IMG/VR virus record: IMGVR_UViG_3300008117_000049
Location: 62,001-126,000 of that record
Origin: a virus
Reading direction: 5' to 3' (one strand)
Length of the DNA stretch: 64,000 nt
The notes beneath the pieces were generated by a model. It searched no databases. It had not been told where the DNA came from and saw only the letters and a list, made by a program, of their open reading frames with translations. Positions 8,401-26,708 of this stretch are shown one piece after another. Both the position numbers and the translations under genes were made by a program. Within the stretch, counting starts at the first letter, position 1; each line of letters starts with the position of its first letter.

Positions 8401-8737
8401 TCTCCAGGTCCCCATTTTTTCCATGCACGCCCATTTCCATGCTGACGCATGGAAAAAGTGCTAACCCACAAATCCAGAACCCCCGGAGTCCAGGCCCTTC
8501 ATCTAACACATAAGCCTTATGTTTTTTCAGGGAGATGAGCCTCACCATTTCTGTTCGCTCTGGGCGAAATAAGTTTTTTTGACATTTTGGAATAAATGAC
8601 GAACACTTGGTGTTATAGTCTGTGTATCAACGAAAAACACTCCCAAAAAAAGTTTTGGAAATGGACTTGACAAAGTGGTGAAAATCACTATTGTTGATAG
8701 TAGATACAAAAAAGCGTTTTAGATAAGGAGAGACCAA
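8401..8737. promoter_or_regulatory. Composite intergenic cassette
   Basis: In order: CCAGGTCCCC, two CCATGC boxes and a GCATGGAAAAA box (8418-8456), an ACATAA-GCC-TTATGT hairpin with a T run (8508-8527), a GTTCGCTCTGGGCGAA dyad (8553-8568) and a GGAAT-N18-GTT promoter (8589). The same order recurs before later genes. Confidence 0.6.
8589..8619 (+). promoter_or_regulatory. SigR/SigH-like promoter (GGAAT-N18-GTT)
   Basis: GGAAT (8589-8593), 18 bases, GTTATAGT (8612-8619). TTGACA just upstream (8579-8584) could be an overlapping sigma-70 -35. The leader to the 8738 gene is unusually long; it also contains TTGACA at 8669 and a GTGGTGAAAATCAC dyad, a possible second promoter. Confidence 0.6.
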
Positions 8738-9292
8738 ATGAACGCAAACACAGAAAAAACAGTAGTTGGCAAGGCACTCTATTTAGAGTTCCGCAAAGAC
8801 AACTACACCTACCAAATGGTTATCACGCCACCAGCGACTAACGCTGAAGGTGGGGTAATCCCGGCTTGTGTAATGGAGAGACGACTTTCGTCTTGGCATC
8901 CACGCAAGAACTGGAACTTTTCATCAGTTCCAACAACTGGGGACTTCGTTCTACCTCGTCAAGCGAGTGGCGAGTTCCAGCAAGAGACTGACCTAAATCG
9001 TGTAAAGCACATTTCTGCTACACACCTACACAGATTAGTTTCAAAAACCATTGACTCACTTATTCACAGAGATTGGAAGTTGTTCAAGCAACCAATCACA
9101 GTTGAGGCAACTTACAAGGATGTTGAACTTATCAAATCTGGTAAGACTTCAAACGAACTTGTTCGTAGGATTGAACGCTCTCGTAAAGCGTTTAATTTCC
9201 CAGAGGCGTTATTTGATGCACCTGCACCAGTAGCACCTGCAACACCAACTGTTGTCACCCTGACACCAGTAACTCCCGGCGTAGCAAGATAA
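8738..9292 (+). CDS. Hypothetical protein upstream of the MoxR-like gene, 184 aa
   Basis: ATG at 8738 with AAGGAGAG. Residues 10-155 are mixed alpha/beta without a recognised catalytic motif. The last 30 residues are Ala/Pro/Thr-rich (APAPVAPATPTVV), a flexible tail. It is 14 bases from the AAA+ ATPase gene and shares its operon, so it may be a substrate or adaptor of the MoxR-VWA pair; that is inference from position. Confidence 0.7.
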   Translation: MNANTEKTVVGKALYLEFRKDNYTYQMVITPPATNAEGGVIPACVMERRLSSWHPRKNWNFSSVPTTGDFVLPRQASGEFQQETDLNRVKHISATHLHRLVSKTIDSLIHRDWKLFKQPITVEATYKDVELIKSGKTSNELVRRIERSRKAFNFPEALFDAPAPVAPATPTVVTLTPVTPGVAR

Positions 9293-9306
9293 GGAGACCA
9301 ACCAAA

Positions 9307-10341
9307 ATGACTACACCAAACACAAATCCAACCTCACAAGAGTGGGTTGAAAACCAGCGTAGGATTCACGAGAACCTACCAGTCATGCTCAGCGCAGTTG
9401 TTGGGCAAGTTCTAAATCCAGTTGTCGCATCTGACCTAAACTTAGGTTATGACGAGACAGCAGGTAAAGCAGTTATTCGCAATCGTGATAACGCCAACAC
9501 TGAGAAAGCAGGAGTTCAAGTGACGCAAGTCGACGCTCTTGCTGGTGAAAGTTTTTATGTTCGCCCTAATGGACAGAAATACTTCACTCGTAAGTGGGGG
9601 CAACACACAGATGTTGAAGTTGCTCGTAGCCAGCGAGCAAGTGCGACTGGAAAGTCAATCTTGCTTTATGGTGCACCGGGCACTGGAAAGACAGCAATGT
9701 TTGAAGGTGCTTTTGGTGACGACCTAATCACAGTTCTTGGAACTGGCGACACCGAAGTTGGCGACCTAGTTGGTGGCTATGTTCAAACAATCGCTGGTGG
9801 CTTTGAGTGGGTGGATGGGCCGCTAGTGCGAGCAGCAGAAGAGGGCAAAGTCCTACTGATTGACGAGATTGGTTTGATTGACCCCAAAGTTCTTTCAGTC
9901 GTCTATGGTCTTATGGATGGTCGTAGAGAACTCAAAGTAACTGCCAACCCTGAACGAGCAATCGTTAAGGCTAAGGATGGTTTCTTCGTGGTGGCTGCTA
10001 CTAACCCTAACGCTCCCGGAGTAAATCTTTCTGAGGCTCTACTCTCTCGCTTTGGTATTCAAGCAGAAATGACTACTGACTGGACACTTGCTCGTAAGTT
10101 AGGAGTTCCAGCACAAGCAGTAACTTGTGCACAGAACCTAGCCAAAAAGCAACAGTCTGATGAAGTCAACTGGTCACCACAAATGCGTGAGTTGCTAGAT
10201 TACAGAGACATCTCTGCTGAACTTGGTGCAGACTGGGCAGTCTCTAACTTGATTGCCCAAGCACCAGTTGAAGACAGAGCGATTGTCGCTGATGTATTTA
10301 CTCGTGTCTATGGCACAGAGTTCAAGCCAGCCAAAATCTAG
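9307..10341 (+). CDS. MoxR/CobS-type AAA+ ATPase
   Basis: Walker A G-A-P-G-T-G-K-T at residues 122-129, Walker B L-L-I-D-E at 183-187, sensor-like A-T-N-P-N at 231-235 and an S-R-F-G arginine-finger segment near 249. This is the AAA_5/MoxR arrangement. Such ATPases act with a VWA partner as chaperones that insert metals or remodel complexes; the partner is the next gene. The first 115 residues are a separate N-terminal region. RBS AAGGAGA. The stop codon lies in a hairpin (10329-10357). Confidence 0.88.
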   Translation: MTTPNTNPTSQEWVENQRRIHENLPVMLSAVVGQVLNPVVASDLNLGYDETAGKAVIRNRDNANTEKAGVQVTQVDALAGESFYVRPNGQKYFTRKWGQHTDVEVARSQRASATGKSILLYGAPGTGKTAMFEGAFGDDLITVLGTGDTEVGDLVGGYVQTIAGGFEWVDGPLVRAAEEGKVLLIDEIGLIDPKVLSVVYGLMDGRRELKVTANPERAIVKAKDGFFVVAATNPNAPGVNLSEALLSRFGIQAEMTTDWTLARKLGVPAQAVTCAQNLAKKQQSDEVNWSPQMRELLDYRDISAELGADWAVSNLIAQAPVEDRAIVADVFTRVYGTEFKPAKI

Positions 10342-10399
10342 GTCTCCGATTTTGGCTCGTGTGTGGGGTGGCTTACCCTTAGATTTCCGCCCCACACAC
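10329..10399 (+). terminator. Two consecutive hairpins after the AAA+ gene
   Basis: AGCCAAAAT (10329-10337) pairs with ATTTTGGCT (10349-10357) and encloses the TAG stop. GTGTGTGGGG (10359-10368) pairs with CCCCACACAC (10390-10399). There is no long T run, so they may attenuate, stabilise or partly terminate the message. A GTGTGGGG/CCCCACAC hairpin recurs at 14160-14189. Confidence 0.5.
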
Positions 10400-10412
10400 A
10401 CCCTAAAAATCT

Positions 10413-10439
10413 GGGAATAAATCTTGACATTTTTTAGTT
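10413..10439 (+). promoter_or_regulatory. SigR/SigH-like promoter
   Basis: GGGAAT (10413-10418), 18 bases, GTT (10437-10439), 68 bases before the VWA gene. A TTGACA at 10425 lies inside the spacer. Confidence 0.55.
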
Positions 10440-10480
10440 TTATACAGTAAAGTAGTAGTAACAAGAAAAGGAGTTCAGAA

Positions 10481-12376
10481 ATGAGCCACTACAAAGTAAG
10501 CACCAAAACCATTGGTCGCACCCACCCTGACTGGTTGAAAGTCAATGCCAGCGTTGGCAAGATTGTCAACAAATGGTCGCTACGCCAAGACCTAGTTGTA
10601 GGTCTAGTTGAGGACACCACCATTGGTGCACCTGCGTGTTTCAATCCTGCCACAGCAGAGATTGAAGTTTGTATCAGCAAAGCGTTTGGCAATGTTGAGC
10701 CAAAAGAAGTTGGCGAACTTACACACCGAAAAAATCAACTTAAGCACCCAACTGCTACTGGTGCTATTTTCCACGAGGCACTCCACGCTAGGATTTCTCG
10801 CTGGTCATTAGAGCAAGCAGCAAAAGATTTAGATGCAAGACACTTGCGTTTCTTGCATGCTATGGAAGAGGGTCGCATTGAGTATTGGGGTTGCGTATTT
10901 GTTCCAGAGAACAGATTGCTACTTCGTGCTTGTGCAATGGAAATCGTTATGGCAGAACTTGACGAGCAAGTTAAAAATGTTTCAAAAGTAGACGCTGCTG
11001 CCTTTACTGCTCTGCTCACTCTTGCGAGAGTAGACGCTGGCGTTTTGGATGCAAATGATGTTCCAGAAGTTGTTATGGAAATCCTGCACGAGGTTCTTGG
11101 TAAAGAGACCATTGACCAGTTGCGTGAAATCTGGAAAGAGTTCCAAGCACACAGCGACCACGAAAACGCATTACCACTTTACGAACTTACAAATCGTTTC
11201 ATTGAAGTTCTTGATGCACGCAAAGATGAAGTTGGCGAGAAACCAACTGAAACACCAAAAGGTGGTTGCGAGTATCCGGGTGGAGAGAGTGGCACACCAG
11301 AACCGGGCACATCAAAGCCGAGCGAGGATGGCACACCTACACCAAGCAACGAACCTACTGACGAGCAAGTCAAGCAGTTCAAGAAGTTCATTGAGCAAGT
11401 CAAAGACGCAGTTGAAGAAATGAAAGACATTGTTCAGATTGCCAACCAAGACGACATCAATGACGAGATTGACATGGATGAACGCAAAGAAGAAGTCGAG
11501 CAAAGAGACAAAGCACACGAAGAAAAGAAACATCGTGACAAGATTGCTGACGAAGTTTTCTCTGCTGGTTCTCACATAACTGGAATTAGAACCAACTCTG
11601 TTCTTCAAGACTCTCGCTCACCTAAGCCAGAAGAACTGGCAGCAGCCAACAAAGTTGCTAACGCTTTGCGTAAAGCAAAGTATCGTGAGCGTTCACAAGT
11701 TCGTGCTGGTAGCGTTGTTCCACCAGGTCGCTTGCGTTCTCGTGCAGTTGTTCAGCGTGAGGCTCTTAAGGCTAAGGGCGTTGTATCTCCGATTGAAACT
11801 TGGAGACGCACACAGCGTAAGCAAACAGAAGACCCAACATTAAAGGTTGGCGTTATGGTGGACATTTCTGGTTCTATGAAACCAGCAATGCAACCAATGG
11901 GCATTACTGCGTGGATTATGTCAGAGGCAGTTCGTAGGATTCAGGGCAAGTGTGCAATGGTCTATTACGGTCAGAATGTATTTGCCACTCTTAAGCCGGG
12001 ACAGAAGTTGGACAAAGTGAAGACTTTCACTGCCACCGACTCAACCGAAGAGTTTGCCAAAGCGTTCAAGGCTCTTGACAGTGGCTTGGGTCTAACCAGT
12101 GGAGACGGTGCGAGATTGCTCGTAGTTGTTTCTGACGGTAGATACCGTAGCGACCAGCAAGCATACGCCAAGCAGTTGCTCAAAGAGGCTGACCGTAAGG
12201 GCGTGGCTATCTTGTGGCTGACATTTGACGGTAAGACTGGCTACGCTAAGTCATACCTAGACGGAACAAGTGGCGAGATTGTATCGCTCAACAGCACCGA
12301 GTCGCCAGTCAAAGCAGCGCAGGTAATCGGACAGACCGCGGCCAAAGTGGTCTCGGCAATCGGCTCACGAGTCTAA
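10481..12376 (+). CDS. VWA-domain protein (CobT/MoxR partner) with HExxH
   Basis: The C-terminal 180 residues are a von Willebrand A domain with the MIDAS motif D-I-S-G-S-M (D461-M466) and the later V-V-S-D-G-R. The middle (about 250-380) is low-complexity, rich in Pro, Glu and Lys. The N-terminal part contains H-E-A-L-H at residues 98-102, the zinc-protease HExxH pattern, so it may be a peptidase or an inactive zincin fold. The pairing with the MoxR-like ATPase mirrors CobS/CobT and MoxR/VWA chaperone systems. It has its own promoter and AAAGGAG. Confidence 0.85.
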   Translation: MSHYKVSTKTIGRTHPDWLKVNASVGKIVNKWSLRQDLVVGLVEDTTIGAPACFNPATAEIEVCISKAFGNVEPKEVGELTHRKNQLKHPTATGAIFHEALHARISRWSLEQAAKDLDARHLRFLHAMEEGRIEYWGCVFVPENRLLLRACAMEIVMAELDEQVKNVSKVDAAAFTALLTLARVDAGVLDANDVPEVVMEILHEVLGKETIDQLREIWKEFQAHSDHENALPLYELTNRFIEVLDARKDEVGEKPTETPKGGCEYPGGESGTPEPGTSKPSEDGTPTPSNEPTDEQVKQFKKFIEQVKDAVEEMKDIVQIANQDDINDEIDMDERKEEVEQRDKAHEEKKHRDKIADEVFSAGSHITGIRTNSVLQDSRSPKPEELAAANKVANALRKAKYRERSQVRAGSVVPPGRLRSRAVVQREALKAKGVVSPIETWRRTQRKQTEDPTLKVGVMVDISGSMKPAMQPMGITAWIMSEAVRRIQGKCAMVYYGQNVFATLKPGQKLDKVKTFTATDSTEEFAKAFKALDSGLGLTSGDGARLLVVVSDGRYRSDQQAYAKQLLKEADRKGVAILWLTFDGKTGYAKSYLDGTSGEIVSLNSTESPVKAAQVIGQTAAKVVSAIGSRV

Positions 12377-12930: not shown

Positions 12931-13149
12931 GTTGCACCTGGGGTAATACTTTTTCCATGCGAGAGGTTTGTTCCATGCTTCGCATGGAAAAACCAATAAC
13001 CTGCGTTTCCTTATGTTTTTTCTTCGTTTGAAGGTGTCGTCTTCTTGTTCGCTCAGGGCGAACAGAAAAATACTTGCCAAAGGGAAGAAAATGTCAGCGT
13101 AGTGTGTTATCTTTCTTGTATGGGAAATGACAAAACGATTGGAGACCAA
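12931..13149. promoter_or_regulatory. Composite intergenic cassette
   Basis: CACCTGGGG, TTTTTCCATGC, the hairpin TTCCATGC-TTC-GCATGGAA (12972-12990), CTTATGTTTTTT, the dyad GTTCGCTCAGGGCGAAC (13047-13063), and a GGGAAG-N18-GTT promoter (13082-13108). This is the clearest complete copy of the cassette. Confidence 0.65.
13082..13108 (+). promoter_or_regulatory. SigR/SigH-like promoter (GGGAAG variant)
   Basis: GGGAAG (13082-13087), 18 bases, GTT (13106-13108), 68 bases before the ATG at 13150. Confidence 0.55.
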
Positions 13150-13434
13150 ATGCAATACTCAACTCTTTTTCCAAAGGTAACCCTAGTAAAGCGTTCACAG
13201 GGACAGCGTGGGCAGTATGGGGCTAGAAAAGCCTACATGATTTACATAAGGCAGTTAAACCCCACAGGGCGTTGGTGCGTCTTTATGTCTTGGGGCAGAG
13301 AAGAAGCACCTAACTCTTGGATGGGCAGTGAAAAGATTTTTGCGACAGAGCAGGAGGCAGTTGCTTTTGCTTGGGATAAGTTCTACGAAAAGATTGACAA
13401 AGGCTACACAGAAAAAGTCTTGAAAAATAGTTAA
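13150..13434 (+). CDS. Hypothetical protein, 94 aa
   Basis: The ATG at 13150 has GGAG seven bases upstream and follows the promoter at 13082. Farther in-frame starts lie inside the operator dyad or before the transcription start. The protein is alpha/beta with W-C-V-F-M-S-W and a helical E-Q-E-A-V-A-F-A-W end. This is a common fold among small phage proteins, but no function is recognised. Confidence 0.65.
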   Translation: MQYSTLFPKVTLVKRSQGQRGQYGARKAYMIYIRQLNPTGRWCVFMSWGREEAPNSWMGSEKIFATEQEAVAFAWDKFYEKIDKGYTEKVLKNS

Positions 13435-13451
13435 AAATAAACTTGACATTT

Positions 13452-13478
13452 GGGAATAAATCCTGAATAATCATAGTT
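13452..13478 (+). promoter_or_regulatory. SigR/SigH-like promoter
   Basis: GGGAAT (13452-13457), 18 bases, GTTATAGTTATTATAG from 13476. TTGACA lies at 13443-13448. It is 64 bases before the next start. Confidence 0.65.
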
Positions 13479-13515
13479 ATAGTTATTATAGAAGTTCTTT
13501 TGAAAGGAGAACAAA

Positions 13516-13845
13516 GTGGAAAGACTAGGAATCCACACTGAGTCAGCAAAGGCTCAGTTGCTAACAACCCCAATCAAGTTTGACTTGGCTGGTAAATCAG
13601 GAGTCACCATTGACTCTTTCGCTAACGCTGAGGGCGAGGCTATTTATCGTCTTCAATGGACTGACTATGTAGTAAATGAGTGGAACGAGTTTTACGCAAC
13701 TCTTTCTCTTGCTCTTGCTCGCGTAGCAGTTCTATCTGCCTGTATCGAAGAAGACTTAAAGAACGAAGAAACATTGTTCTTTAAGAGCGACTCCGAGACT
13801 TTCGCAAACCACGCATACAACTTCATAAGCAACGAGGTGAAATAA
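13516..13845 (+). CDS. Hypothetical protein, 109 aa
   Basis: GTG start with AAAGGAGAAC. The central segment reads LQWTDYVVNEWNEFYATLSLALARVAVLSACI by parts, mostly helical, and the rest is mixed. It is coupled by TAATG to the zinc-finger gene downstream. No family recognised. Confidence 0.7.
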   Translation: MERLGIHTESAKAQLLTTPIKFDLAGKSGVTIDSFANAEGEAIYRLQWTDYVVNEWNEFYATLSLALARVAVLSACIEEDLKNEETLFFKSDSETFANHAYNFISNEVK

Positions 13846-14150
13846 TGACTGACAACAGAACCCACCCTTGCCCAACTTGTGATGGGCAGATTCCGAACAA
13901 CGAAACTCCCGGAGCATACCCCGGTGCTATCTCACGCAAGGATAACAAAACAGAAATCTGTTCTGCGTGTGGAATGAACGAGGCTTTCGCAGATTACAAA
14001 AAGCAACTCAGGGAAGTTTCTGGGATTGTTTGGCAGTCAACTGTTTTGGCAGAAATGGTTGAGCACCTAAACGACAACGAGATTTCATTACTCGTCAACG
14101 CTCTCAATGACGCAGTTGCCGAAATCTGCGAGTCCTACGACATAAAGTAG
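13845..14150 (+). CDS. Small zinc-finger protein, 101 aa
   Basis: The N-terminal half carries C-P-T-C (residues 9-12), the sequence P-G-A-Y-P-G-A-I-S-R, and C-S-A-C-G (about 39-43). This treble-clef-like layout recurs in many actinobacteriophage small proteins. The C-terminal half is helical. It is coupled to the preceding gene by TAATG. A role in nucleic-acid binding or protein-protein contact is inference. Confidence 0.75.
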   Translation: MTDNRTHPCPTCDGQIPNNETPGAYPGAISRKDNKTEICSACGMNEAFADYKKQLREVSGIVWQSTVLAEMVEHLNDNEISLLVNALNDAVAEICESYDIK

Positions 14151-14159
14151 AAACTCTGG

Positions 14160-14197
14160 GTGTGGGGTTGCCAAGTGTCAGCCCCACACTCTATAAT
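14160..14197 (+). promoter_or_regulatory. Hairpin then TTGCCA-N18-TATAAT promoter
   Basis: GTGTGGGG (14160-14167)/CCCCACAC (14182-14189) hairpin overlapping TTGCCA (14168-14173), then TATAAT (14192-14197). The -35 hexamer, spacer and -10 match the promoter at 2266. It drives 14236. Confidence 0.6.
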
Positions 14198-14235
14198 AAA
14201 ATACATAACAACTCTCTTGAAAGGAGAACTGCCAA

Positions 14236-14646
14236 ATGGCAAACTACTACGCAACAGAAAGAACCAACTACTTCTTGGTTAACAACGAAGAGGGGTTCTT
14301 AGAAGATGTCCAAACTTTTTTGGGCAACCACGAAATCCTTAGAAAAGAAAAGGATGGCAAAACTTATTTTGCGATTCTTGGGGATTATGAAAATGGGCAA
14401 GGGCTACCTGCTTATTACGAACACGAAGGCGACACATTTGAGTTAGAGTGGGCTGACTTTTTCAAAGCACACTTGGCAGAGGGTTCTGTCGCAATCATCA
14501 TGCACGCTGGTAACGAGAAAATGCGTTATGTAATGGGCTATGCTCACGCTTACAACTGGAAAGGCGAAGTTAAGACTATTGACCTGCGTGACATTTACGA
14601 ACTTGCCAAAGAACTTGGCAACGACATTACAGAAGTGGAGTTTTAA
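14236..14646 (+). CDS. Hypothetical protein, 136 aa
   Basis: ATG with AAAGGAGAAC. Acidic alpha/beta protein: TNYFLVNNEEGFLEDVQTF, a central YFAILGDYENGQGLPAYY, an E-W-A-D-F-F helix and a V-A-I-I-M-H strand. The pattern resembles small phage proteins found beside antirestriction genes, but no diagnostic motif is seen. The next gene starts directly after its TAA. Confidence 0.7.
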   Translation: MANYYATERTNYFLVNNEEGFLEDVQTFLGNHEILRKEKDGKTYFAILGDYENGQGLPAYYEHEGDTFELEWADFFKAHLAEGSVAIIMHAGNEKMRYVMGYAHAYNWKGEVKTIDLRDIYELAKELGNDITEVEF

Positions 14647-15544: not shown

Positions 15545-15682
15545 ATGAACACATTGCTGAGGCTATCTGCCGAATCCACAGTGGACATCTACCTACTTGC
15601 TGAAAGTGAGGAGTTGATTGCTCTAATCAAACAGAACAAGCCATACACCGAACTTTTGGAGTGGGTTAACGAGAACTTCTAG
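15545..15682 (+). CDS. Small acidic protein, 45 aa
   Basis: ATG at 15545 with AAGGAGAG eight bases before. This start is preferred over in-frame upstream ATGs inside the ClgR-like gene. The peptide is helical and acidic (LLAESEELIALIKQN, LLEWVNENF). It could be a partner or anti-regulator of the adjacent HTH protein; no family recognised. Confidence 0.6.
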   Translation: MNTLLRLSAESTVDIYLLAESEELIALIKQNKPYTELLEWVNENF

Positions 15683-15716
15683 TTCTCTTAGAGCGAACAA
15701 AAAACTTTGGCGTTTT

Positions 15717-15747
15717 GGAATAAAATGTCAGTGTTGTAGGTTATAGT
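15717..15747 (+). promoter_or_regulatory. SigR/SigH-like promoter
   Basis: GGAAT (15717-15721), 18 bases, GTTATAGT (15740-15747). A half-dyad GAGCGAAC lies upstream at 15691. It is 83 bases before 15800. Confidence 0.65.
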
Positions 15748-16770: not shown

Positions 16771-16831
16771 GTTCGCTCTGGGCAAACAAAAAGTTTTCCT
16801 GTTTGGGAAGATTTTGTCTGGGGTTGGAGTT
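16771..16831 (+). promoter_or_regulatory. Dyad plus SigR/SigH-like promoter
   Basis: GTTCGCTCTGGGCAAAC (16771-16787), then GGGAAG (16805-16810), 18 bases, GTT (16829-16831). It is 50 bases before the 16855 gene. Confidence 0.55.
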
Positions 16832-16854
16832 ATTGTATGTATAGGAGGTGGAAC

Positions 16855-17387: not shown

Positions 17388-17448
17388 GTTCACTGAGGGA
17401 GAACAAAAAAAGTTGGCACATGGGAATAAAAAAGTAATGTATTGGGTT
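17388..17448 (+). promoter_or_regulatory. Dyad plus SigR/SigH-like promoter
   Basis: GTTCACTGAGGGAGAAC (17388-17404), then GGGAAT (17422-17427), 18 bases, GTTATTAT from 17446. It is 52 bases before 17474. Confidence 0.65.
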
Positions 17449-17473
17449 ATTATTTGTATGGAGGTGAAAAACT

Positions 17474-18405: not shown

Positions 18406-18437
18406 GGGAATAAAAAGTCAGTGCGACCTGTTATAGT
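18406..18437 (+). promoter_or_regulatory. SigR/SigH-like promoter
   Basis: GGGAAT (18406-18411), 18 bases, GTTATAGT (18430-18437), 54 bases before 18460. A cassette with CCATGCC...GAGCATGG and CATAAG boxes lies upstream (18236-18335). Confidence 0.68.
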
Positions 18438-20312: not shown

Positions 20313-20339
20313 GGGAAGTTATTGGCAAGTTATCTGGTT
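20313..20339 (+). promoter_or_regulatory. SigR/SigH-like promoter (GGGAAG variant)
   Basis: GGGAAG (20313-20318), 18 bases, GTT (20337-20339), 54 bases before 20367. Confidence 0.5.
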
Positions 20340-20366
20340 TTAATTAAGTAGAAAGGTGGTGAAAAT

Positions 20367-20480: not shown

Positions 20481-20498
20481 ATAGTTCAGTTTAGATTT

Positions 20499-20530
20499 CC
20501 CCGAATCAGTTGGTTCGGGGATTTCTATTT
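20499..20530 (+). terminator. Probable terminator
   Basis: CCCCGAA paired with TTCGGGG, then ATTTCTATTT; the T run is interrupted. Confidence 0.6.
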
Positions 20531-20693
20531 AATCTGCTTCTGCAACTCGGATGCAACTCGGATGGAGGGTGCGAAAGTTTCCTGCCGTGTGCATGGAAAC
20601 CCAGGGGACCTGGAATTTCTTCTGCATCACGGGAATCTTTGCGTCAAGAAGTTTGTTGCGTTTGGAGATTATTATAATGATTTGATAACGACA

Positions 20694-20719
20694 GGAATAA
20701 ATACGGGGGATTATCCGTT
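20694..20719 (+). promoter_or_regulatory. SigR/SigH-like promoter
   Basis: GGAAT (20694-20698), 18 bases, GTT (20717-20719), 58 bases before 20752. Confidence 0.6.
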
Positions 20720-20751
20720 TATGTTAGTGAGATAGAAAGGAAGTGATTACT

Positions 20752-20925
20752 ATGCCGATACTAAACAGCAAGGGCGAAGCCTTTATTGAGTGCGGGGGTT
20801 GCGGAAACCTATTTGACCCAAGCACCGAAGTAAAGATTTACGAAACCCACGACTGCGAAACCTACAATGTTTGTAGTGATGAATGCGGTTGTGGCGACCC
20901 CGGGTGCGACACAATAGCAAAGTAA
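20752..20925 (+). CDS. Small Cys-rich protein, 57 aa
   Basis: The ATG at 20752 follows AAAGGAAGTG by 8-13 bases; an in-frame GTG at 20743 sits inside that site. Cysteines: C-G-G-C near residue 14, C-E-T (about 35), then C-S-D-E-C-G-C and C-D. It probably binds two zinc ions (FYVE/PHD-like spacing cannot be excluded). Function unknown. Confidence 0.65.
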   Translation: MPILNSKGEAFIECGGCGNLFDPSTEVKIYETHDCETYNVCSDECGCGDPGCDTIAK

Positions 20926-21172
20926 TAACTGAATACCGCAAGTGCCAACTCCATTCGGGGTTGGCATTTGTGTTTAACGCCGAAACCCAGAGAACGCAGG
21001 TGGATGCTGAATTATTTTGAGCCGGGGTTCCTAGAATTTCCATGCCCGGTTTTTCGTTTGGATACGCCGTCATTCGCTGTGATGAGTGGTGGGGCTTCCT
21101 CATCTATAACATAAGAGAACGCCGACTTGTGTGATAACGATTTATAACGATTTGATAACAACGCCGATGCTT

Positions 21173-21199
21173 GGGAAGTTTTTGTCGGGGGCGGGGGTT
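21173..21199 (+). promoter_or_regulatory. SigR/SigH-like promoter (GGGAAG variant)
   Basis: GGGAAG (21173-21178), 18 bases, GTTATTAT from 21197, 55 bases before 21228. Confidence 0.55.
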
Positions 21200-21227
21200 A
21201 TTATAACTATGAAAGGTGGTGATTACT

Positions 21228-21497
21228 ATGGAACTAAATGACGCGGGGCAACAAGTTGTTGGTGGTATTCCACAAACTAAACTTACGCCGAGTGACCTTG
21301 TTAAGTATTGGGGTGCGATTATTGGTGCGAACACCGATGGCGACCTAGCAACTTGGCAACACGACACAACTATCGTCAACATCTTTACCTCAAACCAAGA
21401 TGGAACTTACGACTTCTCAACTTACATAGAAGAAGACTTAGAGGGCCGGGATTTGGATTTTGTGATGGAGATGGTCGACCAGCAGTTGTTTATCTAA
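21228..21497 (+). CDS. Hypothetical acidic protein, 89 aa
   Basis: ATG at 21228 after AAAGGTGGTG. Alpha/beta content with LTPSDLVKYWGAIIG, T-I-V-N-I-F-T-S and an acidic C-terminal helix (EEDLEGRDLDFVMEMVDQQ). No motif recognised. Single-gene unit between two promoters. Confidence 0.65.
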   Translation: MELNDAGQQVVGGIPQTKLTPSDLVKYWGAIIGANTDGDLATWQHDTTIVNIFTSNQDGTYDFSTYIEEDLEGRDLDFVMEMVDQQLFI

Positions 21498-21506
21498 ACC
21501 AATGCC

Positions 21507-21553
21507 GAACCCTCTGGGAATAATTTGTCAGGGGGTTCGGTTATTATTCTTTT
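21507..21553 (+). promoter_or_regulatory. Promoter nested in a hairpin (GGGAAT-N18-GTT)
   Basis: GGGAAT (21516-21521), 18 bases, GTTATTAT (from 21540), 59 bases before 21575. The promoter core is enclosed by CCGAACCC (about 21505)/GGGTTCGG (about 21533-21540), which in the preceding transcript would fold as a terminator followed by TTATTATTCTTTT. Confidence 0.6.
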
Positions 21554-21574
21554 ACACCGAGAGGAGGTGGGACT

Positions 21575-21808
21575 ATGGAACTAACAGCAGTAGAAGAGCA
21601 AGCAGTAAAGGCTATCTACACCGATTATCACAATGGGACAACTAACGCCGATGAAGCGTTGCACGCTTTGGAGCAACTAATCAATGGTGGACTATTGCCT
21701 TGCGATAAGTGCGGGGAGAAGATAGAAGCAGATACACACGCCGAAGAACTTGGTATGTGCGTTGAATGCTCAAACGCTTTCTTTACTCACAAAGACGAGG
21801 CAAACTAA
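21575..21808 (+). CDS. Zinc-finger protein, 77 aa
   Basis: ATG with GAGGAGGTGG. Helical first half (VEEQAVKAIYTDYHNG). The second half has C-D-K-C-G-E-K (about 43-49) and C-V-E-C-S (about 63-67), a DksA/TraR-like or zinc-ribbon spacing. The D-x-x-D signature of DksA is not evident. Function unknown. Confidence 0.68.
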   Translation: MELTAVEEQAVKAIYTDYHNGTTNADEALHALEQLINGGLLPCDKCGEKIEADTHAEELGMCVECSNAFFTHKDEAN

Positions 21809-21932
21809 CACCGAATCTTCCAAACACGACCCTCAACTCAGGTTGGGGGTTTTGTTTTGCTGGGCTCGGCTGGGTGGGCTGCCGAATTTTCCATTCCCTA
21901 AACGCCGTGTTATTTTATTTTTAGAAAAAGTA

Positions 21933-21961
21933 TTGACATCCGCTGGGGCAATGTTTATAAT
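21933..21961 (+). promoter_or_regulatory. Near-consensus sigma-70 promoter
   Basis: TTGACA (21933-21938), 17 bases, TATAAT (21956-21961): one of the best housekeeping promoters in the window. Confidence 0.82.
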
Positions 21962-21985
21962 AAAGTTATGCGAAAGGAGGAACTC

Positions 21986-22198
21986 ATGCATGAATACGAA
22001 AAAACTTTACAAAAGTTATGTGCCGAACTTGTTGTTGAGCAAGGAAAGAACGCGGTTTTTGACTTCGTGAAGCAAAATCATAGAGAACTGAGTTGGTATT
22101 TCTGTCTGGAATGCAAAAGTGAGTGTCCTGCGACATCAAATCAAGTTTGTTTGGTGTGCGGTGCAAACATTTTTGATGAAGACGACCCAACCATCTAA
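21986..22198 (+). CDS. Zinc-ribbon protein, 70 aa
   Basis: ATG 21986 is chosen for AAAGGAGG at the right distance. An in-frame ATG at 21968 coincides with the expected transcription start and might be a leaderless alternative. C-L-E-C-K-S-E-C and C-L-V-C-G in the second half form a zinc ribbon. The first half is helical and acidic. Followed by a terminator. Confidence 0.66.
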   Translation: MHEYEKTLQKLCAELVVEQGKNAVFDFVKQNHRELSWYFCLECKSECPATSNQVCLVCGANIFDEDDPTI

Positions 22199-22202
22199 AA
22201 AG

Positions 22203-22244
22203 TATCCCGTATTGGAGAAAAAAGCCGATGCGGGATAGTTTTTT
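22203..22244 (+). terminator. Rho-independent terminator
   Basis: TATCCCGTATTGG pairs with CCGATGCGGGATA (two G-U pairs), then GTTTTTT. Confidence 0.85.
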
Positions 22245-22280
22245 GTTCGCCATGGGCATGGAAAATGCGGCGACCCTGAC

Positions 22281-22309
22281 TTGACTTTTGTTTTATTATC
22301 TGGGACAAT
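22281..22309 (+). promoter_or_regulatory. Sigma-70-like promoter
   Basis: TTGACT (22281-22286), 17 bases, GACAAT (22304-22309), ahead of 22343. Confidence 0.5.
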
Positions 22310-22342
22310 GTAATCAACAACCAATACCGAAAGGAGATGAAA

Positions 22343-22474
22343 ATGGAATACGAGTTTCTATTTACGATGTGGGAGTGCACCGCTTGTGCTCACCTTTACA
22401 ATAACGAGCAAGAAAAATGCACGAACTGCCACAACGAGTGCAAACCTATAAAAATTAAAGGCGTAAGAGCCTAA
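22343..22474 (+). CDS. Rubredoxin-like zinc-ribbon peptide, 43 aa
   Basis: ATG with AAAGGAGATG. Residues 12-33: C-T-A-C-A-H-L-Y...C-T-N-C-H-N-E-C, two CxxC knuckles 11 residues apart, as in rubredoxin-type or zinc-ribbon proteins. Basic tail. Below the usual size cut-off but with promoter and ribosome-binding site. Confidence 0.65.
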   Translation: MEYEFLFTMWECTACAHLYNNEQEKCTNCHNECKPIKIKGVRA

Positions 22475-22515
22475 ACCCCCGTTATCAAATTGTTATGAAC
22501 TGCCGATAGAAATAC

Positions 22516-22543
22516 TTGACTAATTTGTGCCGTAGGGTATAGA
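22516..22543 (+). promoter_or_regulatory. Sigma-70-like promoter
   Basis: TTGACT (22516-22521), 16 bases, TATAGA (22538-22543). An ATG at 22552 is near the predicted start and in frame with 22585. Confidence 0.6.
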
Positions 22544-22584
22544 TTTGCTGTATGGCAACAAAATCTCTCGGAAAGGAGAACGCA

Positions 22585-22764
22585 ATGAAAATTGTTATTG
22601 CTTTGCTAGGTATGTGGTGTTTTTGGAATTGTCTTCGCATCACCGACCAACTCGGACACGCCTTTATCTTTGGTGGAAACTTACCTGCTCTATGGGCTGG
22701 GCTTTTGCTTTTCTTCTCTGGGTTTGTGGGCTGTGTAGTGTATCTGTTTGGAAACAGGGAATAA
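22585..22764 (+). CDS. Small membrane protein with two TM segments, 59 aa
   Basis: ATG 22585 follows AAAGGAGAACGC. Two hydrophobic stretches, IVIALLGMWCFWNCL and ALWAGLLLFFSGFVGCVVYLF in parts, are separated by a short polar loop with a His. This size and shape fit holin-like or small inner-membrane phage proteins. It lies far from the endolysin-like gene, so a holin role is not claimed. Confidence 0.65.
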   Translation: MKIVIALLGMWCFWNCLRITDQLGHAFIFGGNLPALWAGLLLFFSGFVGCVVYLFGNRE

Positions 22765-22788
22765 AATGTCTGCCGTTTTAGTTATAGT
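22757..22788 (+). promoter_or_regulatory. SigR/SigH-like promoter
   Basis: GGGAAT (22757-22762), 18 bases, GTTATAGT (22781-22788). It overlaps the end of the membrane-protein gene and is 59 bases before 22816. Confidence 0.68.
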
Positions 22789-22815
22789 AATTATCAAGAA
22801 AGGAATTGATAACTA

Positions 22816-23031
22816 ATGGAAAAAACAAAAATAAGAGTAGAACTGATTTCTACTTCCGACCCTTATACAAATCTAACTAAGGGTGCATTAGGAACTAAGG
22901 TGATGGAATACATTGACCCTTGGGGATACCGAACAATTGTAGTGCAATGGGACAATGGCTCTAACCTAAGTCTTATCGAAGGTTCGGGAGATAGTTGGAG
23001 AGAGATTACGGAAGTGGTGGATAATGTATAA
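22816..23031 (+). CDS. DUF4314-like protein, 71 aa
   Basis: V-E-L-I-S-T-S-D-P-Y-T-N-L-x2-G-A-L-G-T, then V-V-Q-W-D-N-G-S-N-L-S-L-I-E-G, and a final D. This is the DUF4314 pattern, a small SH3-like barrel common in phages and plasmids with no known activity. It starts an operon of overlapping genes through 24021; the next gene begins eight bases before its stop. Confidence 0.75.
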   Translation: MEKTKIRVELISTSDPYTNLTKGALGTKVMEYIDPWGYRTIVVQWDNGSNLSLIEGSGDSWREITEVVDNV

Positions 23032-23227
23032 CTATTCATCAGCAACTTATACAGTCACTCTGACCACAAACTCTACGAGTTACATTACGAGTGTTACAAC
23101 ACCGACAACTGACCAAGAAGAAATTATTGACTTGGCGATAGAACGCATAAAAGAAGAAGATGGTTTTGACTTATCTAATCACAAGTTAGTTGATACCGAT
23201 GTAGAAGTATTGGAAGTGTGGGACTAA
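23024..23227 (+). CDS. Hypothetical protein, 67 aa
   Basis: Overlaps DUF4314 by 8 bases and is followed by a TAATG junction. Thr/Ser-rich beta-like N-terminus (SATYTVTLTTNST) and an acidic C-terminal helix plus strand (DLAIERIKEEDGF, DVEVLEVWD). It is reminiscent of small phage proteins with a repeated beta-alpha-beta fold, but not assigned. Confidence 0.62.
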   Translation: MYNYSSATYTVTLTTNSTSYITSVTTPTTDQEEIIDLAIERIKEEDGFDLSNHKLVDTDVEVLEVWD

Positions 23228-23505
23228 TGAGTGCTACCGATTACAACGACCTAAGCCGACACATAGGACACGATGTAGTAGTTGTGACCTATGCCGATAC
23301 TAATGTCGCCATTGAGTGCGAAGAGTGTAGTGAAGTGCTACTGGACTTTGACAAAGAAGTTGAGTGCGAGAACCACACTTGGACTTTACAAATGAACATA
23401 GCCAACACCCCGACACAGAACTGGTGCGAAGAGTGTGGAGCAACTGAACCTGCCGACCCTGAAGATGTGGCAGAACAAATCCGACTATTAGGAGAGAACG
23501 ACTAA
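23227..23505 (+). CDS. Zinc-ribbon protein, 92 aa
   Basis: ATG 23227 overlaps the previous TAA. Cys pattern: C-E-E-C-S (about 36-40), C-E-N-H (about 52-55) and W-C-E-E-C-G (about 74-79), enough for two metal sites. Acidic. Translationally coupled on both sides. Confidence 0.66.
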   Translation: MSATDYNDLSRHIGHDVVVVTYADTNVAIECEECSEVLLDFDKEVECENHTWTLQMNIANTPTQNWCEECGATEPADPEDVAEQIRLLGEND

Positions 23506-23645
23506 TGAACGATAAAGAAAAAGAACTAATCAACAATAAAGAAAAAGCGTTGATAAATGTTAGAACCATTCAGATTTGTTTGCGTATGGGTTTGACTATG
23601 GAACAAATTAAGAAAGTGCTGGATAAAAATGAATCAGGAAACTAA
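23505..23645 (+). CDS. Small helical protein, 46 aa
   Basis: The ATG overlaps the previous TAA, and its end overlaps the next gene by 17 bases. Lys/Glu-rich helix (EKELINNKEKALINV) then MGLTMEQIKKVLDK, which looks like part of an HTH. The overlaps support translation. Confidence 0.58.
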   Translation: MNDKEKELINNKEKALINVRTIQICLRMGLTMEQIKKVLDKNESGN

Positions 23646-24021
23646 AATCAACACCGAAAGATTATCCCCTGAGTTTTATGTCTGGGAAACTGGATACGAA
23701 GAAGTCTGGGCTGATAAAGATAATCCATTTTTCGTAGTGCGAAATGGCGAAATGCGTATCCACAAAACCGAAAAAGATGGAAGTGTAAAGATAATCAGAT
23801 ACACCGATGCTTTGCTAAAAGAAATCAGCAACGATGGGGAACTTAGCAAATTGTATGAACAAGATGAAGAACTGCTAACAATAGTTATGAACCCTTGGTT
23901 TGAGATTTACTCTATCCATCACACCGACTACTACTCTGAGCCGTTTTCTGAACTGGACAAGGCGATAGATTACGCAAGAGAAATGCTGGTGAAGTATCCC
24001 GATGGGATAGTTACCGACTAA
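23629..24021 (+). CDS. Hypothetical protein, 130 aa
   Basis: ATG overlapping the previous small gene, with AAAAATG and no strong Shine-Dalgarno sequence. Alpha/beta protein with E-E-V-W-A-D-K-D-N-P-F-F-V-V, M-R-I-H-K-T-E-K-D-G and an E-L-D-K-A-I-D-Y-A-R-E-M end. It is the last gene of the 22816 operon; a terminator follows. Confidence 0.68.
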   Translation: MNQETKINTERLSPEFYVWETGYEEVWADKDNPFFVVRNGEMRIHKTEKDGSVKIIRYTDALLKEISNDGELSKLYEQDEELLTIVMNPWFEIYSIHHTDYYSEPFSELDKAIDYAREMLVKYPDGIVTD

Positions 24022-24039
24022 AAGAGAGAAAGAGAAACT

Positions 24040-24066
24040 GGCTTGGGAAACCGAGCCTTTTTCTTT
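24040..24066 (+). terminator. Rho-independent terminator
   Basis: GGCTTGG-GAAA-CCGAGCC followed by TTTTTCTTT. Confidence 0.8.
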
Positions 24067-24122
24067 ATGCCGAAGATGGCGTGGGCAGCCTGTTTTTCCG
24101 TTCACAATGCTACCTTTGTAGC

Positions 24123-24395
24123 ATGTCCTTTCACTCTGCTACACCGATAAAACTGCTTGACGCGTTTGATGAACGCATCTCTTTTCTTTACTTCCTTTCA
24201 GGTGGGGTGCATGATGGGAGAATAGTTCTGATTTCCTCGTTGGCGAGGCAGGATTATGAAGAAACAAGTGTCTTTCTCTGTAATGATTTGGAGGGAGATG
24301 ATGTGGACTGGGGTAATTCGTTATCAACTATCCCGTATGTGGATACCGAAGATGCACTCAACAGGATAGGATACACAACGAAGATTTCCTCTTGA
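24123..24395 (+). CDS. Doubtful hypothetical protein, about 90 aa
   Basis: Open frame from a possible GTG at 24081 or ATG at 24123; no ribosome-binding site or promoter is visible. The composition is compatible with coding (LLDAFDERISFLYFL, RIVLISSLARQDY, V-D-T-E-D-A-L-N-R-I). Its end overlaps the -35 of the next promoter. Kept with low confidence. Confidence 0.35.
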   Translation: MSFHSATPIKLLDAFDERISFLYFLSGGVHDGRIVLISSLARQDYEETSVFLCNDLEGDDVDWGNSLSTIPYVDTEDALNRIGYTTKISS

Positions 24396-24420
24396 CATGG
24401 AAAAACCTGCCGCCTACAAT
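24392..24420 (+). promoter_or_regulatory. Sigma-70-type promoter
   Basis: TTGACA (24392-24397), 17 bases, TACAAT (24415-24420). The spacer contains the CATGGAAAAA box. Confidence 0.72.
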
Positions 24421-24455
24421 AAAACACAAGACGATAATGACAAAAGGAGATGCCG

Positions 24456-24953
24456 ATGGGCACGACTGTTGATGGATTGAAGCCGACTCACGCCGTAGGA
24501 GAGTCGTTCAGTAGAAATGTGTGGGGCTGGACTCCACTGAAGAACTATGTTCTTGAAAATCACAACAAATACGAGAAAGCCTTTCTTGATGGCAAACTCA
24601 CTAAACTCCAAGCAAGCAGACTGGCCGATGCTCTGTTTGAAGACATCGCAAGTGGCAAGGCCGAGAAATATGCCGATAACTTTATGCTCACTGTAAAAGC
24701 AGAGCCAACTGTCGTATGTGAAATCTGTGCTGGCACTGGTATTCGTGCCGATGAACTTGGAAAAGAAAAGGGTATGGACAAGATGGAGTTAGTGGCTCTG
24801 CTTGCCGAACAAGTTGGTAGGACACACGGATATTGCAATGGCTGTGGTGGGTTTGGCTCAAGGAAGACCAACAACAGTAGTTATTACTTAGAAGTAGAAG
24901 ATATCCAAGAGTTCGCCGAGTTTCTCAAAAACTCAGGTGGAGCAAACTGGTAA
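24456..24953 (+). CDS. CxxCxGxG-type zinc-finger protein A, 165 aa
   Basis: ATG 24456 is best spaced from AAAGGAG (24450 abuts it). R-N-V-W-G-W-x-P-L near residue 21 is followed by helices. Then come C-E-I-C-A-G-T-G (about 90) and C-N-G-C-G-G-F-G (about 129), DnaJ-like CxxCxGxG pairs, and a final F-A-E-F-L-K-N-S-G-G. The next gene has the same blocks in the same order, so they are tandem paralogues. The family is widespread in phages with no assigned function. Confidence 0.75.
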   Translation: MGTTVDGLKPTHAVGESFSRNVWGWTPLKNYVLENHNKYEKAFLDGKLTKLQASRLADALFEDIASGKAEKYADNFMLTVKAEPTVVCEICAGTGIRADELGKEKGMDKMELVALLAEQVGRTHGYCNGCGGFGSRKTNNSSYYLEVEDIQEFAEFLKNSGGANW

Positions 24954-24972
24954 AAAATCTTTTGCGACACGC

Positions 24973-25002
24973 TTGACAAATGTCAGTGCCGTTGTGTAGA
25001 TT
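24973..25002 (+). promoter_or_regulatory. Sigma-70-like promoter
   Basis: TTGACA (24973-24978), 18 bases, TAGATT (24997-25002), ahead of 25047. Confidence 0.6.
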
Positions 25003-25046
25003 TCATATATACCAAATGGTAACAACAAACGATTGGAGAAAATACT

Positions 25047-25562
25047 ATGGGTATGGATGTATATGGCAAGAGCCCTAAGAACGAAACTGGCGAGTACTTC
25101 CGCCGTAATGTTTGGGGCTGGCGACCACTCTGGGACTACTGCGTTGATAACTTCAACGACCTAGTTGGCGAAGTATCTGGACATTACAACGATGGCGATG
25201 GATTGAACAACGCTGGCAGTTTGGAACTAGCACGCCGAATTAGAGAACAACTAAAAACTGGTGAGGCTAAGGATTACATTGAAAAGCGTAATTCTCGTTT
25301 AGCATCACTTGAACGACCTAACTGCGAACTCTGCCAAGGAACTGGTATTCGTACCGATGCACTTGGCGTAGAGCACAAGATGCCGATTAGAGAACTTTCA
25401 CCTGAGATGGCATCACTAACTAATCGCACACATGGTTGGTGTAATGGTTGCGATGGCGAAGGTAAGAAAGATGCGTGGGAAACTTCCTACTCACTTGACC
25501 TTGATGATTTAGAAGAGTTTGCCGAGTTCCTAGAGAACTCTGGTGGATTTGAGATTTGCTAA
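25047..25562 (+). CDS. CxxCxGxG-type zinc-finger protein B, 171 aa
   Basis: M-G-M-D-V-Y-G-K-x-P-x6-E-Y-F-R-R-N-V-W-G-W-R-P-L-W-D-Y opening, C-E-L-C-Q-G-T-G (about 95), C-N-G-C-D-G-E-G (about 136) and the F-A-E-F-L-E-N-S-G-G ending. This copy keeps the conserved opening (MGxDVYGKxP) that the upstream paralogue has changed, so it is probably the canonical member. RBS GGAGAA. Zinc binding is expected; the role is unknown. Confidence 0.78.
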   Translation: MGMDVYGKSPKNETGEYFRRNVWGWRPLWDYCVDNFNDLVGEVSGHYNDGDGLNNAGSLELARRIREQLKTGEAKDYIEKRNSRLASLERPNCELCQGTGIRTDALGVEHKMPIRELSPEMASLTNRTHGWCNGCDGEGKKDAWETSYSLDLDDLEEFAEFLENSGGFEIC

Positions 25563-25600
25563 TGAAAGAGCAAACACAACTCACGAAAGGAGGGGTAAAA

Positions 25601-25843
25601 GTGAGAGCAAATATGACAAAAAAGAACGCCGATGCTAGTTGGGATTGGTTTGTTGCTATGTACACAAAGCGTGGCTACAAATCTCTAAACCAATTTGCGA
25701 TGGCTACTGGAATGCAGAAAAGCAGTCTAAGTAGATACTTCCATCAGCAACGACAGTTGCCGTCAGGTATGATGGCAAAACTCTGCCAAGAACTCAAAGT
25801 CACGCCAAACGAGATGATGAAAGCACTTGGTATGTGGCAGTAA
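25601..25843 (+). CDS. HTH (XRE-like) regulator, 80 aa
   Basis: GTG 25601 is chosen because AAAGGAGGGG lies seven bases upstream; ATG 25562 is an alternative that overlaps the previous TAA. Residues about 22-75 form a helix-turn-helix: S-L-N-Q-F-A-M-A-T-G-M-Q-K-S-S-L-S-R-Y-F, then L-P-S-G-M-M-A-K-L-C-Q-E-L-K-V-T-P-N-E-M. A DNA-binding regulator of early genes is likely; the target is unknown. Confidence 0.72.
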   Translation: MRANMTKKNADASWDWFVAMYTKRGYKSLNQFAMATGMQKSSLSRYFHQQRQLPSGMMAKLCQELKVTPNEMMKALGMWQ

Positions 25844-25869
25844 ACCCCGCTATTTAGTAGCAAACACCT

Positions 25870-25897
25870 GAGCCAAGTGTCTAAACTGGCTCTTTTT
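25870..25897 (+). terminator. Rho-independent terminator
   Basis: GAGCCA paired with TGGCTC across an 11-base loop, then TTTTT. Confidence 0.75.
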
Positions 25898-26011
25898 ACA
25901 CATAAACACCGATTTATGTGGGTAAAATATTACCTATAACTGAATATGTATTGGGAGAACCAAAACAAACAACGACCAAGTACTAACTAACAAGGAAAGG
26001 TAGGTCGCCTA

Positions 26012-26593
26012 ATGAAATGGTTGCTGACAATAACAATGGCTTTGTTGCTCAATGGGTGTGTATCATCTTCGGCAATAGCAAGTCAGTTAGCAAAAGATGA
26101 AGTGACAAGGAGTGTGGAAACTCAACAAATTGTCGCATCAAAGAACATTTTCAATAACCCCGTAATATCTAAATCCACTTCGTTTGCGAAGTATGCGGAA
26201 AGTATTGAAAATAGAAAAAAACTGAATAAAGTCGTAATCCGATTAATACACCGAGTAGGTAAAACCCCCTATGTTCCGACTGGTTCATCTATTTATGGGT
26301 GGGACTGCTCTGGGATGGTCAGATGGGCTTACGAGCAACTGGGTGTAGAAGTACCACACTCAGCAACAGCACAAGCGTATGTTGGTGAAAGAGTATCTAA
26401 GAAAGAACGAAAAGTTGGAGATATAGTAATCTTTGGCTATCGTGGCTCTAAGAGTTTCTACCACTCCGCTATTTACATTGGTAAGGACAAGGTAGTAAAT
26501 GCCAATCGTGGATTTGGTGGAACTCACATACAGCCACTCTCCGATTACGAAAACAACAGAATAATCTATGTTCGGGTAATACCGACTGCGTAA
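26012..26593 (+). CDS. NlpC/P60 endopeptidase lipoprotein
   Basis: Signal peptide with lipobox L-L-N-G-C (C16), predicting export and lipid anchoring on the outer face of the membrane. Residues about 70-193 are an NlpC/P60 domain: W-D-C-S-G-M-V with catalytic C99, V-P-H-S-A, G-D-I-V-I-F, and Y-H-S-A-I-Y-I-G with H151. These cysteine peptidases cut peptide stems of peptidoglycan. A membrane-anchored phage copy could remodel the wall around an infected cell, aid lysis or exclude other phages; the choice is open. RBS AAAGGTAGG. Confidence 0.85.
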   Translation: MKWLLTITMALLLNGCVSSSAIASQLAKDEVTRSVETQQIVASKNIFNNPVISKSTSFAKYAESIENRKKLNKVVIRLIHRVGKTPYVPTGSSIYGWDCSGMVRWAYEQLGVEVPHSATAQAYVGERVSKKERKVGDIVIFGYRGSKSFYHSAIYIGKDKVVNANRGFGGTHIQPLSDYENNRIIYVRVIPTA

Positions 26594-26610
26594 AGATAAA
26601 CTTCAGGAAC

Positions 26611-26640
26611 TCCCCGTCAGAAATGGCGGGGATTTCTCCT
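26611..26640 (+). terminator. Probable terminator
   Basis: CCCCG-T-CA-GAAA-TG-G-CGGGG with a short interrupted T run. Confidence 0.6.
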
Positions 26641-26681
26641 TCCTGGGCCGCCATTTTTTCTGTGCGTTTCCACTTGACAAT

Positions 26682-26708
26682 GGGAATAAATTCCTATAAG
26701 TTTTAGTT
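26682..26708 (+). promoter_or_regulatory. SigR/SigH-like promoter
   Basis: GGGAAT (26682-26687), 18 bases, GTTATTGA from 26706, preceded by TTGACA (26674). It is 53 bases before 26735. Confidence 0.65.

Follow-up and report, generated by a model that had tools for sequence, protein, structure and literature searches.

The locus considered here raises the question of which sigma factor could read a long series of similar promoters in a phage genome. It lies in a stretch of 64,000 nucleotides, hereafter the window, which comprises bases 62001-126000 of an IMG/VR virus record of 135,336 bases (phage genome G000), and an earlier note had listed 14 sites in it as matches to the consensus of SigR and SigH, actinobacterial sigma factors of the extracytoplasmic function (ECF) type. 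The promoter array is real. We further argue, and consider it probable, that it is a SigR/SigH-type array read by the SigR of the host, that a ClgR-type activator may aid it at five cassettes, and that its promoters, here called class R, were derived from a second class of phage promoters, class A.

All 14 sites read GGAA[T/G]-N18-GTT, lie on the + strand and stand upstream of an open reading frame (ORF), and every ORF so served has a purine-rich Shine-Dalgarno sequence ahead of it. The GGG with which they were said to open is present in 11, being replaced by TGG at 8589 and 15717 and by AGG at 20694, while the GGAAG variant does occur in four (13082, 16805, 20313 and 21173) and the frequent -10 form, GTTATAGT or GTTATTAT, follows in 8 of the 14. 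The start codon, which had been placed 50-85 bases after the GGG, is found there at 13 sites (49-83 nt when counted from GGAA), the site at 8589 being the exception with 149 nt. Two extra matches were seen. That at 20631 is probably due to chance; the other, at 34510-34484, is on the minus strand and precedes a gene of the same orientation. Alignment of this second match with the 14 gives the consensus GGGAATAAAT--TCA---------GTTATAGTTA-TATA.

Such a pattern is far in excess of what shuffling produces. GGGAAK-N18-GTT has 13 matches (12 on the + strand), where 100 shuffles averaged 1.17 and never exceeded 5; GGAA[TG]-N18-GTTA likewise has 13 matches in the window (12 on the + strand), where 200 shuffles averaged 0.94 and never exceeded 4. 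The N18 spacing accounts for 37 + strand matches in five sequences of the phage's clade, whereas no other spacing from N10 to N27 exceeds 13; the second commonest, N24, owes its place to GTTATAGTTAT runs. Without any pre-selection of pairs, 9 of the 17 + strand copies of GGAATAAA on the 135-kb contig have GTT at exactly +18, and conversely GGAA lies exactly 18 upstream in 8 of the 13 occurrences of GTTATAGT or GTTATTAT. A dual promoter, which had been suggested on account of TTGACA just upstream, applies to a minority of sites: among the 15 aligned, the exact hexamer lies about 9-10 bp 5' of GGAAT in three (8589, 13452 and 26682), and a fair -10 (AATAAT) follows at N17 only at 13452, so that TTGACA about 9 bp upstream was rejected as a general second promoter.

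Contigs with repeated class R matches all fall in one clade of phages. When 2.9 million viral contigs were searched for exact matches to GGAATAAA-N15-GTTATAGT, 36 proved to contain it, of which the 10 with at least two strict matches all align to the clade; of the 26 with a single match, 2 align and 24 do not, about 20 being expected by chance on rough arithmetic. Relatives were collected by scanning viral contigs for homologues of the phage AAA ATPase, which yielded 80 loci (L-codes), the ATPase being 100% identical in L019-L022 and 81-83% identical in L023-L029. For five genes (those served by the sites at 10413, 13082, 15717, 17422 and 18406), the motif was present within 140 bases upstream in 17 of 23 near-clade orthologue rows but in none of 41 distant ones. 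This count omits gene 8588 (0/32), since a 140-bp span misses the 8589 site, as well as 13452 (near 0/2; distant 1/6, in L033) and single distant matches at 21173, 21516 and 22757; the genes at 16805, 20313, 20694 and 26682 have no orthologue rows. The closest homologue of the phage terminase (76.8% identity) belongs to Actinomycetia phage DSL-LC01, followed by those of Microbacterium and Gordonia phages, and GGAA[TG]-N18-GTTA has no match in DSL-LC01.

Comparison with the relatives places the two promoter types of this phage family in one frame, class A being TTGACA-AATGTC-N12-TATACT and class R GGAATAA-AATGTC-N10-GTTATAGT, or, when expanded, GGAATAA-AATGTCAG-N8-GT-TATAGT. In sister phages class A takes the form TTGACAAATGTCAG-N10-TATACT, and its TTGACANNTGTC core has 10 copies in L030 and 3 in the phage under study. 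The -10 hexamer starts at +17 from the A of ATGTC in both classes, but only class A has the TTGACA at -35, 17-18 bp from the -10, that marks a SigA-type promoter, class R having GAATAA in that place. When sites were selected only by GGAA or TTGA plus an ATGTC-like element, 14 of 24 GGAA types (13/14 within the clade) had GTT two bases ahead of the hexamer start, as against 1 of 36 TTGA types (Fisher p = 1.4e-6, with rows that include orthologues and are thus not independent). Orthologous cassettes change between the two classes; one of them reads GGAAGAAAATGTC..GTTATTAT in L028 and TTGACTAAAATGTC..CATAGACT in L027, with the same upstream box in both. That -35 and -10 should alter together is expected if a promoter passes from one sigma factor to another, and the direction was presumably from class A to class R. 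Ahead of the VWA gene in L023, L025, L026 and L028 a class R promoter overlaps a SigA-type one, so some cassettes may have both.

The ATGTC(AG) element itself keeps to a constant position between the -35 and -10 of both classes, whichever -35 is present (several sites in 13082-32052), and is probably the site for a phage regulator. A distant relative, L046, has one GGAAG..GTTATACC and also a TTGAC..GTTATAGA (14740 and 3527), the latter with no second example in the 36 class A-type sites; this is possibly an independent use of GTT.

These data bear on the idea that the array is a duplicated cassette element, that is, a repeat family or regulator-binding site whose likeness to SigR promoters is coincidental. 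Other repeated modules do share the same intergenic regions and ATGTC is common to both classes, yet spacers vary while GGAA, N18 and GTT stay fixed (the sites were found by that pattern, but the pairing also emerges without it), and sites that are orthologous belong now to one, now to the other of two coherent promoter classes. We regard this explanation as very improbable.

If class R is indeed a promoter class, its -35 points to a particular sigma. C. glutamicum SigH is reported to read GGAAT-N18-19-GTT with other fifth bases tolerated, whereas SigE needs GGAAC (PMC10012870, in part). The fifth -35 base of the phage sites (GGAAN-N18-GTTA, + strand) is T in 8, G in 4, A in 1 and C in none, and thus resembles SigH and not SigE. 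The likeness to the SigR/SigH consensus that had been claimed stands in sequence, N18 spacing, base preference and strand alike. As portrayed in the same source, the C. glutamicum SigH/SigR regulon shares with the phage the GGAAT -35, N18-19, the GTT -10 and tolerance of GGAAG; the phage sites differ in that they belong to a tandem array of cassettes and contain GTTATAGT as well as ATGTC between -35 and -10.

A sigma of this type is available in the candidate host lineage. DSL-LC01 is a lake metagenome assembly described in a passage of PMC10611076 as very likely an actinobacteriophage, and the two WhiB matches in the phage record likewise mark it as an actinophage. Its GC content is 42.1% (53.6% in DSL-LC01), and a figure of 42% is quoted for the order 'Ca. 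Nanopelagicales' in a passage of PMC6802176. The phage is a freshwater one and probably infects low-GC actinobacteria, and its host would be 'Ca. Nanopelagicales'-like. An RNR genome scan aimed at the host gave 9 loci, none of them by title from a small freshwater actinobacterium. Of 393 genomes sampled from the actinobacterial class, 380 have a SigH_actino (TIGR02947) match above cut-off, and from this list 40 genomes of 1.2-1.6 Mb, to judge by size and GC mostly 'Ca. Nanopelagicales', were drawn as host models. An RsrA-like match is present in 39 of the 40 (3 above cut-off), and in the two loci read the gene adjoins sigR downstream and keeps HxxxCxxC. GGAATAAA-N15-GTT has 83 matches in these genomes against 31 for the reversed pattern and precedes, in some of them, dnaK, sigR, trxB, DUF4193 and a helicase-like gene (30 host-site loci inspected, the site being placed in 21).

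Of the two options that the earlier note had left, namely a host stress sigma or an ECF-like sigma encoded by the phage outside the window, the evidence favors the former, given the wide presence of SigH, the same promoter form before sigR, trxB and dnaK, and the lack of a phage sigma region 2. Sigma70_r2 has no match in the phage record or DSL-LC01, the 40,439 six-frame ORFs of the phage, DSL-LC01 and the 80 relative loci include no match to the SigH profile, and a search of phage records for SigH relatives gave sigma genes in other phages only. A phage-encoded ECF sigma was rejected on the profile searches, with the caveat that this record is linear and may be incomplete. It would not be without precedent, for 'Ca. 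Planktophila' phages E7 and F5 are reported to encode a sigma-70 (PMC10202952, in part); as described there, these acI phages share with the present one a whiB-like gene and, as actinophages, hosts from low-GC freshwater lineages, but have 39-kb genomes and a sigma-70 factor of their own. On balance, we deem a class R sigma of phage origin quite improbable. A 210-aa protein with a sigma-region-4.2-like helix (SRERVRQI) is encoded immediately ahead of the terminase genes and has matches in 16 of 20 records of relatives. It was likewise rejected for this role, because its model consists of helix-turn-helix (HTH) units only, none of its PDB matches reaches significance (best E 0.016) and class-A-only relatives have it conserved as well.

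A more serious competitor, and the main one, is that SigA reads class R through TATAGT while a protein of the phage, be it WhiB-like, the HTH protein resembling region 4 or some other, binds GGGAATAAA and so replaces the normal -35 contact. T4 middle promoters, where MotA and AsiA change -35 use and the -10 is kept, work in a comparable manner; here, by comparison, the candidate host lineages carry a sigma of matching type, and the phage co-factor is only a candidate. TATAGT does stand at the correct register, and the phage has two WhiB genes and the conserved region-4-like HTH protein. Against this, both kinds of protein are also present in relatives that lack class R, including DSL-LC01 with its three WhiB matches, for which reason WhiB was rejected as the class R factor; moreover, the model does not require GTT, yet GTT accompanies GGAA, and GGAATAAA-N15-GTT also precedes host stress genes. 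We therefore think it unlikely that SigA with a helper is responsible.

Recognition by host SigR may be assisted from further upstream. If up to 2 mismatches are allowed, the contig + strand has 4 copies of GTTCGCTnnnAGCGAAC, compared with a mean of 0.4 and a maximum of 2 in 20 Markov sequences; all 4 boxes lie 35-36 bp 5' of a class R -35, as does a fifth with 3 mismatches, while six further 3-mismatch boxes do not. In the relatives, a class R -35 follows all 5 listed + strand boxes of L023, all 4 of L028 (at 30-47 bp) and 4 of 5 in L026, but only 1 of 4 in L027. ClgR operators have been described as a GTTCGC-5N-GCG palindrome (PMC9775585, in part), which the phage boxes match exactly in 2 of 5 cases and nearly in 3, and in M. 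tuberculosis diamide induces clgR in a sigH-dependent manner according to a passage of PMC2905415. The likeness to the operators treated in these two sources thus lies in a palindrome upstream of the promoter, the difference being that the phage boxes precede phage genes and that the phage protein falls under the ClgR cut-off. That protein, a 92-aa HTH protein, is 40% identical, across 68 residues, to a ClgR-like protein encoded next to recA in candidate-host genome G100 and has homologues in 29 of the 80 relative loci, class-A-only loci included; it may be ClgR-like in its working only, its score not making it a member of the ClgR family. A strict ClgR box with the class R form was not found in the candidate host's first 400 kb; in G100 (1.2 of 1.36 Mb read), a weaker box with 3 mismatches is found at clpP, 51 bp 5' of GGAAG-N18-GTT, a single example. 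Class I activators bind near -60. If transcription starts about 10 nt after GTT, the phage box would be centred there, and activation by a ClgR-type protein at the boxes is conceivable on these grounds.

The phage protein ends in NLVAF, where the host ClgR-like protein has an alanine pair, a reported ClpP degradation signal in Streptomyces; lacking the pair, the phage protein might be more stable.

In the mechanism that we propose from these comparisons, the host SigR holoenzyme would read GGAATAAA at -35 and GTT at -10, so that class R promoters would drive separate small-gene cassettes of an actinobacterial phage. At five cassettes (about a third of the sites) the upstream operator would let a ClgR-type activator help, the candidates being host ClgR and the phage's own 92-aa relative. 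Class R would have arisen within the clade by replacement of the SigA-type -35 TTGACA and the -10, with ATGTC and the -10 register kept. Upon release of SigR by RsrA, cassette expression would rise, and it may thus be tied to thiol/oxidative or protein-quality stress.

Several observations weigh against this interpretation. The phage carries a transfer-messenger RNA gene outside the window (contig 48972-49311, L008:8972-9311), the tag of which, AESRSAFALVA, has no match among 30 candidate-host tags, leaving the host to be inferred. In the host models the motif lies within 80 nt of trxB at only 5 of 30 loci, and none of 30 rbpA loci shows it with N18, for which reason rbpA was no longer considered a target of host SigR. 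TATAGT would equally suit SigA as a -10, the bases 3' of GTT are more constrained in the phage than in the host sites examined, and the proposal does not account for the ATGTC element. The ClgR-like box is absent from 10 of the 15 class R sites, and the best NCBIfam match of the 92-aa protein, ClgR (NF041677), reaches 68.7 bits against a cut-off of 170. Finally, RsrA normally holds SigR, so that the array would be silent without stress.

Phages usually use the main sigma of the host or bring their own. No report of phage use of a host ECF stress sigma, or of a phage ClgR-like protein, was found by title or abstract in the open-licence literature. The SAS/ESAS (start-associated sequence and extended form) repeats of Cluster K mycobacteriophages are similar in being start-linked repeats, some with an upstream inverted repeat, before many small genes, but are tied to translation starts and, in the portion of the source at hand, have no promoter or sigma assignment (PMC3203893). 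What is new here is the two-class frame, the ClgR-like operator at five sites together with a ClgR-like protein, and the confinement of multi-match contigs to one clade. It is possible, though we advance it with hesitation, that the clade rewired its cassettes from the housekeeping to the thiol-oxidative-stress sigma by the -35/-10 swap, plus ClgR boxes and its own ClgR-like protein, with host stress, or stress caused by infection, as the switch. If true, a dozen-plus promoters would be addressed to a host stress ECF sigma, making part of infection conditional on host redox state. With its single frame, the class A/class R pair also offers a natural experiment on the way in which promoters switch from one sigma to another.

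Table 1. Promoters, upstream boxes and candidate regulators, in window coordinates.
Feature	Position	Strand	Gene served or remark
Class R promoter GGAAT-N18-GTTATAGT	8589..8619	+	ORF 8738-9292
Class R promoter GGAAT-N18-GTTTTATA	10414..10444	+	VWA-like gene 10481-12376; TTGACA within spacer
Class R promoter GGAAG-N18-GTTATCTT, ATGTCAG	13083..13113	+	ORF 13150-13434
Class R promoter GGAAT-N18-GTTATAGT, TTGACA upstream	13453..13483	+	ORF 13516-13845
Class R promoter GGAAT-N18-GTTATAGT, ATGTCAG	15717..15747	+	ORF 15800-16123
Class R promoter GGAAG-N18-GTTATTGT	16806..16836	+	ORF from 16855
Class R promoter GGAAT-N18-GTTATTAT	17423..17453	+	ORF 17474-17848
Class R promoter GGAAT-N18-GTTATAGT	18407..18437	+	ORF 18460-18918
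Class R promoter GGAAG-N18-GTTTTAAT	20314..20344	+	ORF from 20367 (37 aa)
Class R-like site GGAAT-N18-GTTTATGT	20694..20724	+	ORF 20752-20925; weakest -10
Class R promoter GGAAG-N18-GTTATTAT	21174..21204	+	ORF 21228-21497
Class R promoter GGAAT-N18-GTTATTAT	21517..21547	+	ORF 21575-21808
Class R promoter GGAAT-N18-GTTATAGT	22758..22788	+	ORF 22816-23031
Class R promoter GGAAT-N18-GTTATTGA, TTGACA upstream	26683..26713	+	ORF 26735-26944
Class R promoter GGGAAT-N18-GTTATAGA	34479..34510	-	gene 33829-34374 (phosphatase-like)
ClgR-like box	8553..8569	+	36 bp before GGAA
ClgR-like box	13047..13063	+	36 bp before GGAA
ClgR-like box	15682..15698	+	35 bp before GGAA
ClgR-like box	16771..16787	+	35 bp before GGAA
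ClgR-like box, 3 mismatches	17388..17404	+	35 bp before GGAA
Class A promoter TTGACAAATGTCAG-N10-TAGATT	24973..25002	+	ORF 25047-25562
Class A promoter TTGACAAATGTCAT-N10-TATGAT	29040..29069	+	ORF 29117-29353
Class A promoter TTGACAAATGTCAG-N10-TTTACT	32023..32052	+	ahead of ORF preceding terminase
ClgR-like HTH protein, 92 aa	15246..15524	+	
210-aa protein, sigma-region-4-like HTH (SRERVRQI)	30904..31536	+	candidate regulator

Other features of the window were noted in passing. The intergenic regions between 12900 and 20700 contain repeated modules, namely TCCATGC/GCATGGAAA inverted repeats and CTTATGTTTTTT, and runs of ACGGCTAGCC/ACGGCAAGCC occur near 16200-16440 and 19070-19390. An AAA_5 ATPase and an adjoining VWA/CoxE-like protein (9307-12376) form a pair that is conserved across the relatives. 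A Mom-like DNA modification protein (4396-5028), a type IV leader peptidase-like protein (28181-28663), a histone-deacetylase-like protein (29481-30449) and a ferritin-like protein (38330-38803) are also encoded, as are two giant ORFs, one at 38803-48540 (3245 aa, with a DRAT-like ADP-ribosyltransferase domain) and the other at 49168-61494 (4108 aa).

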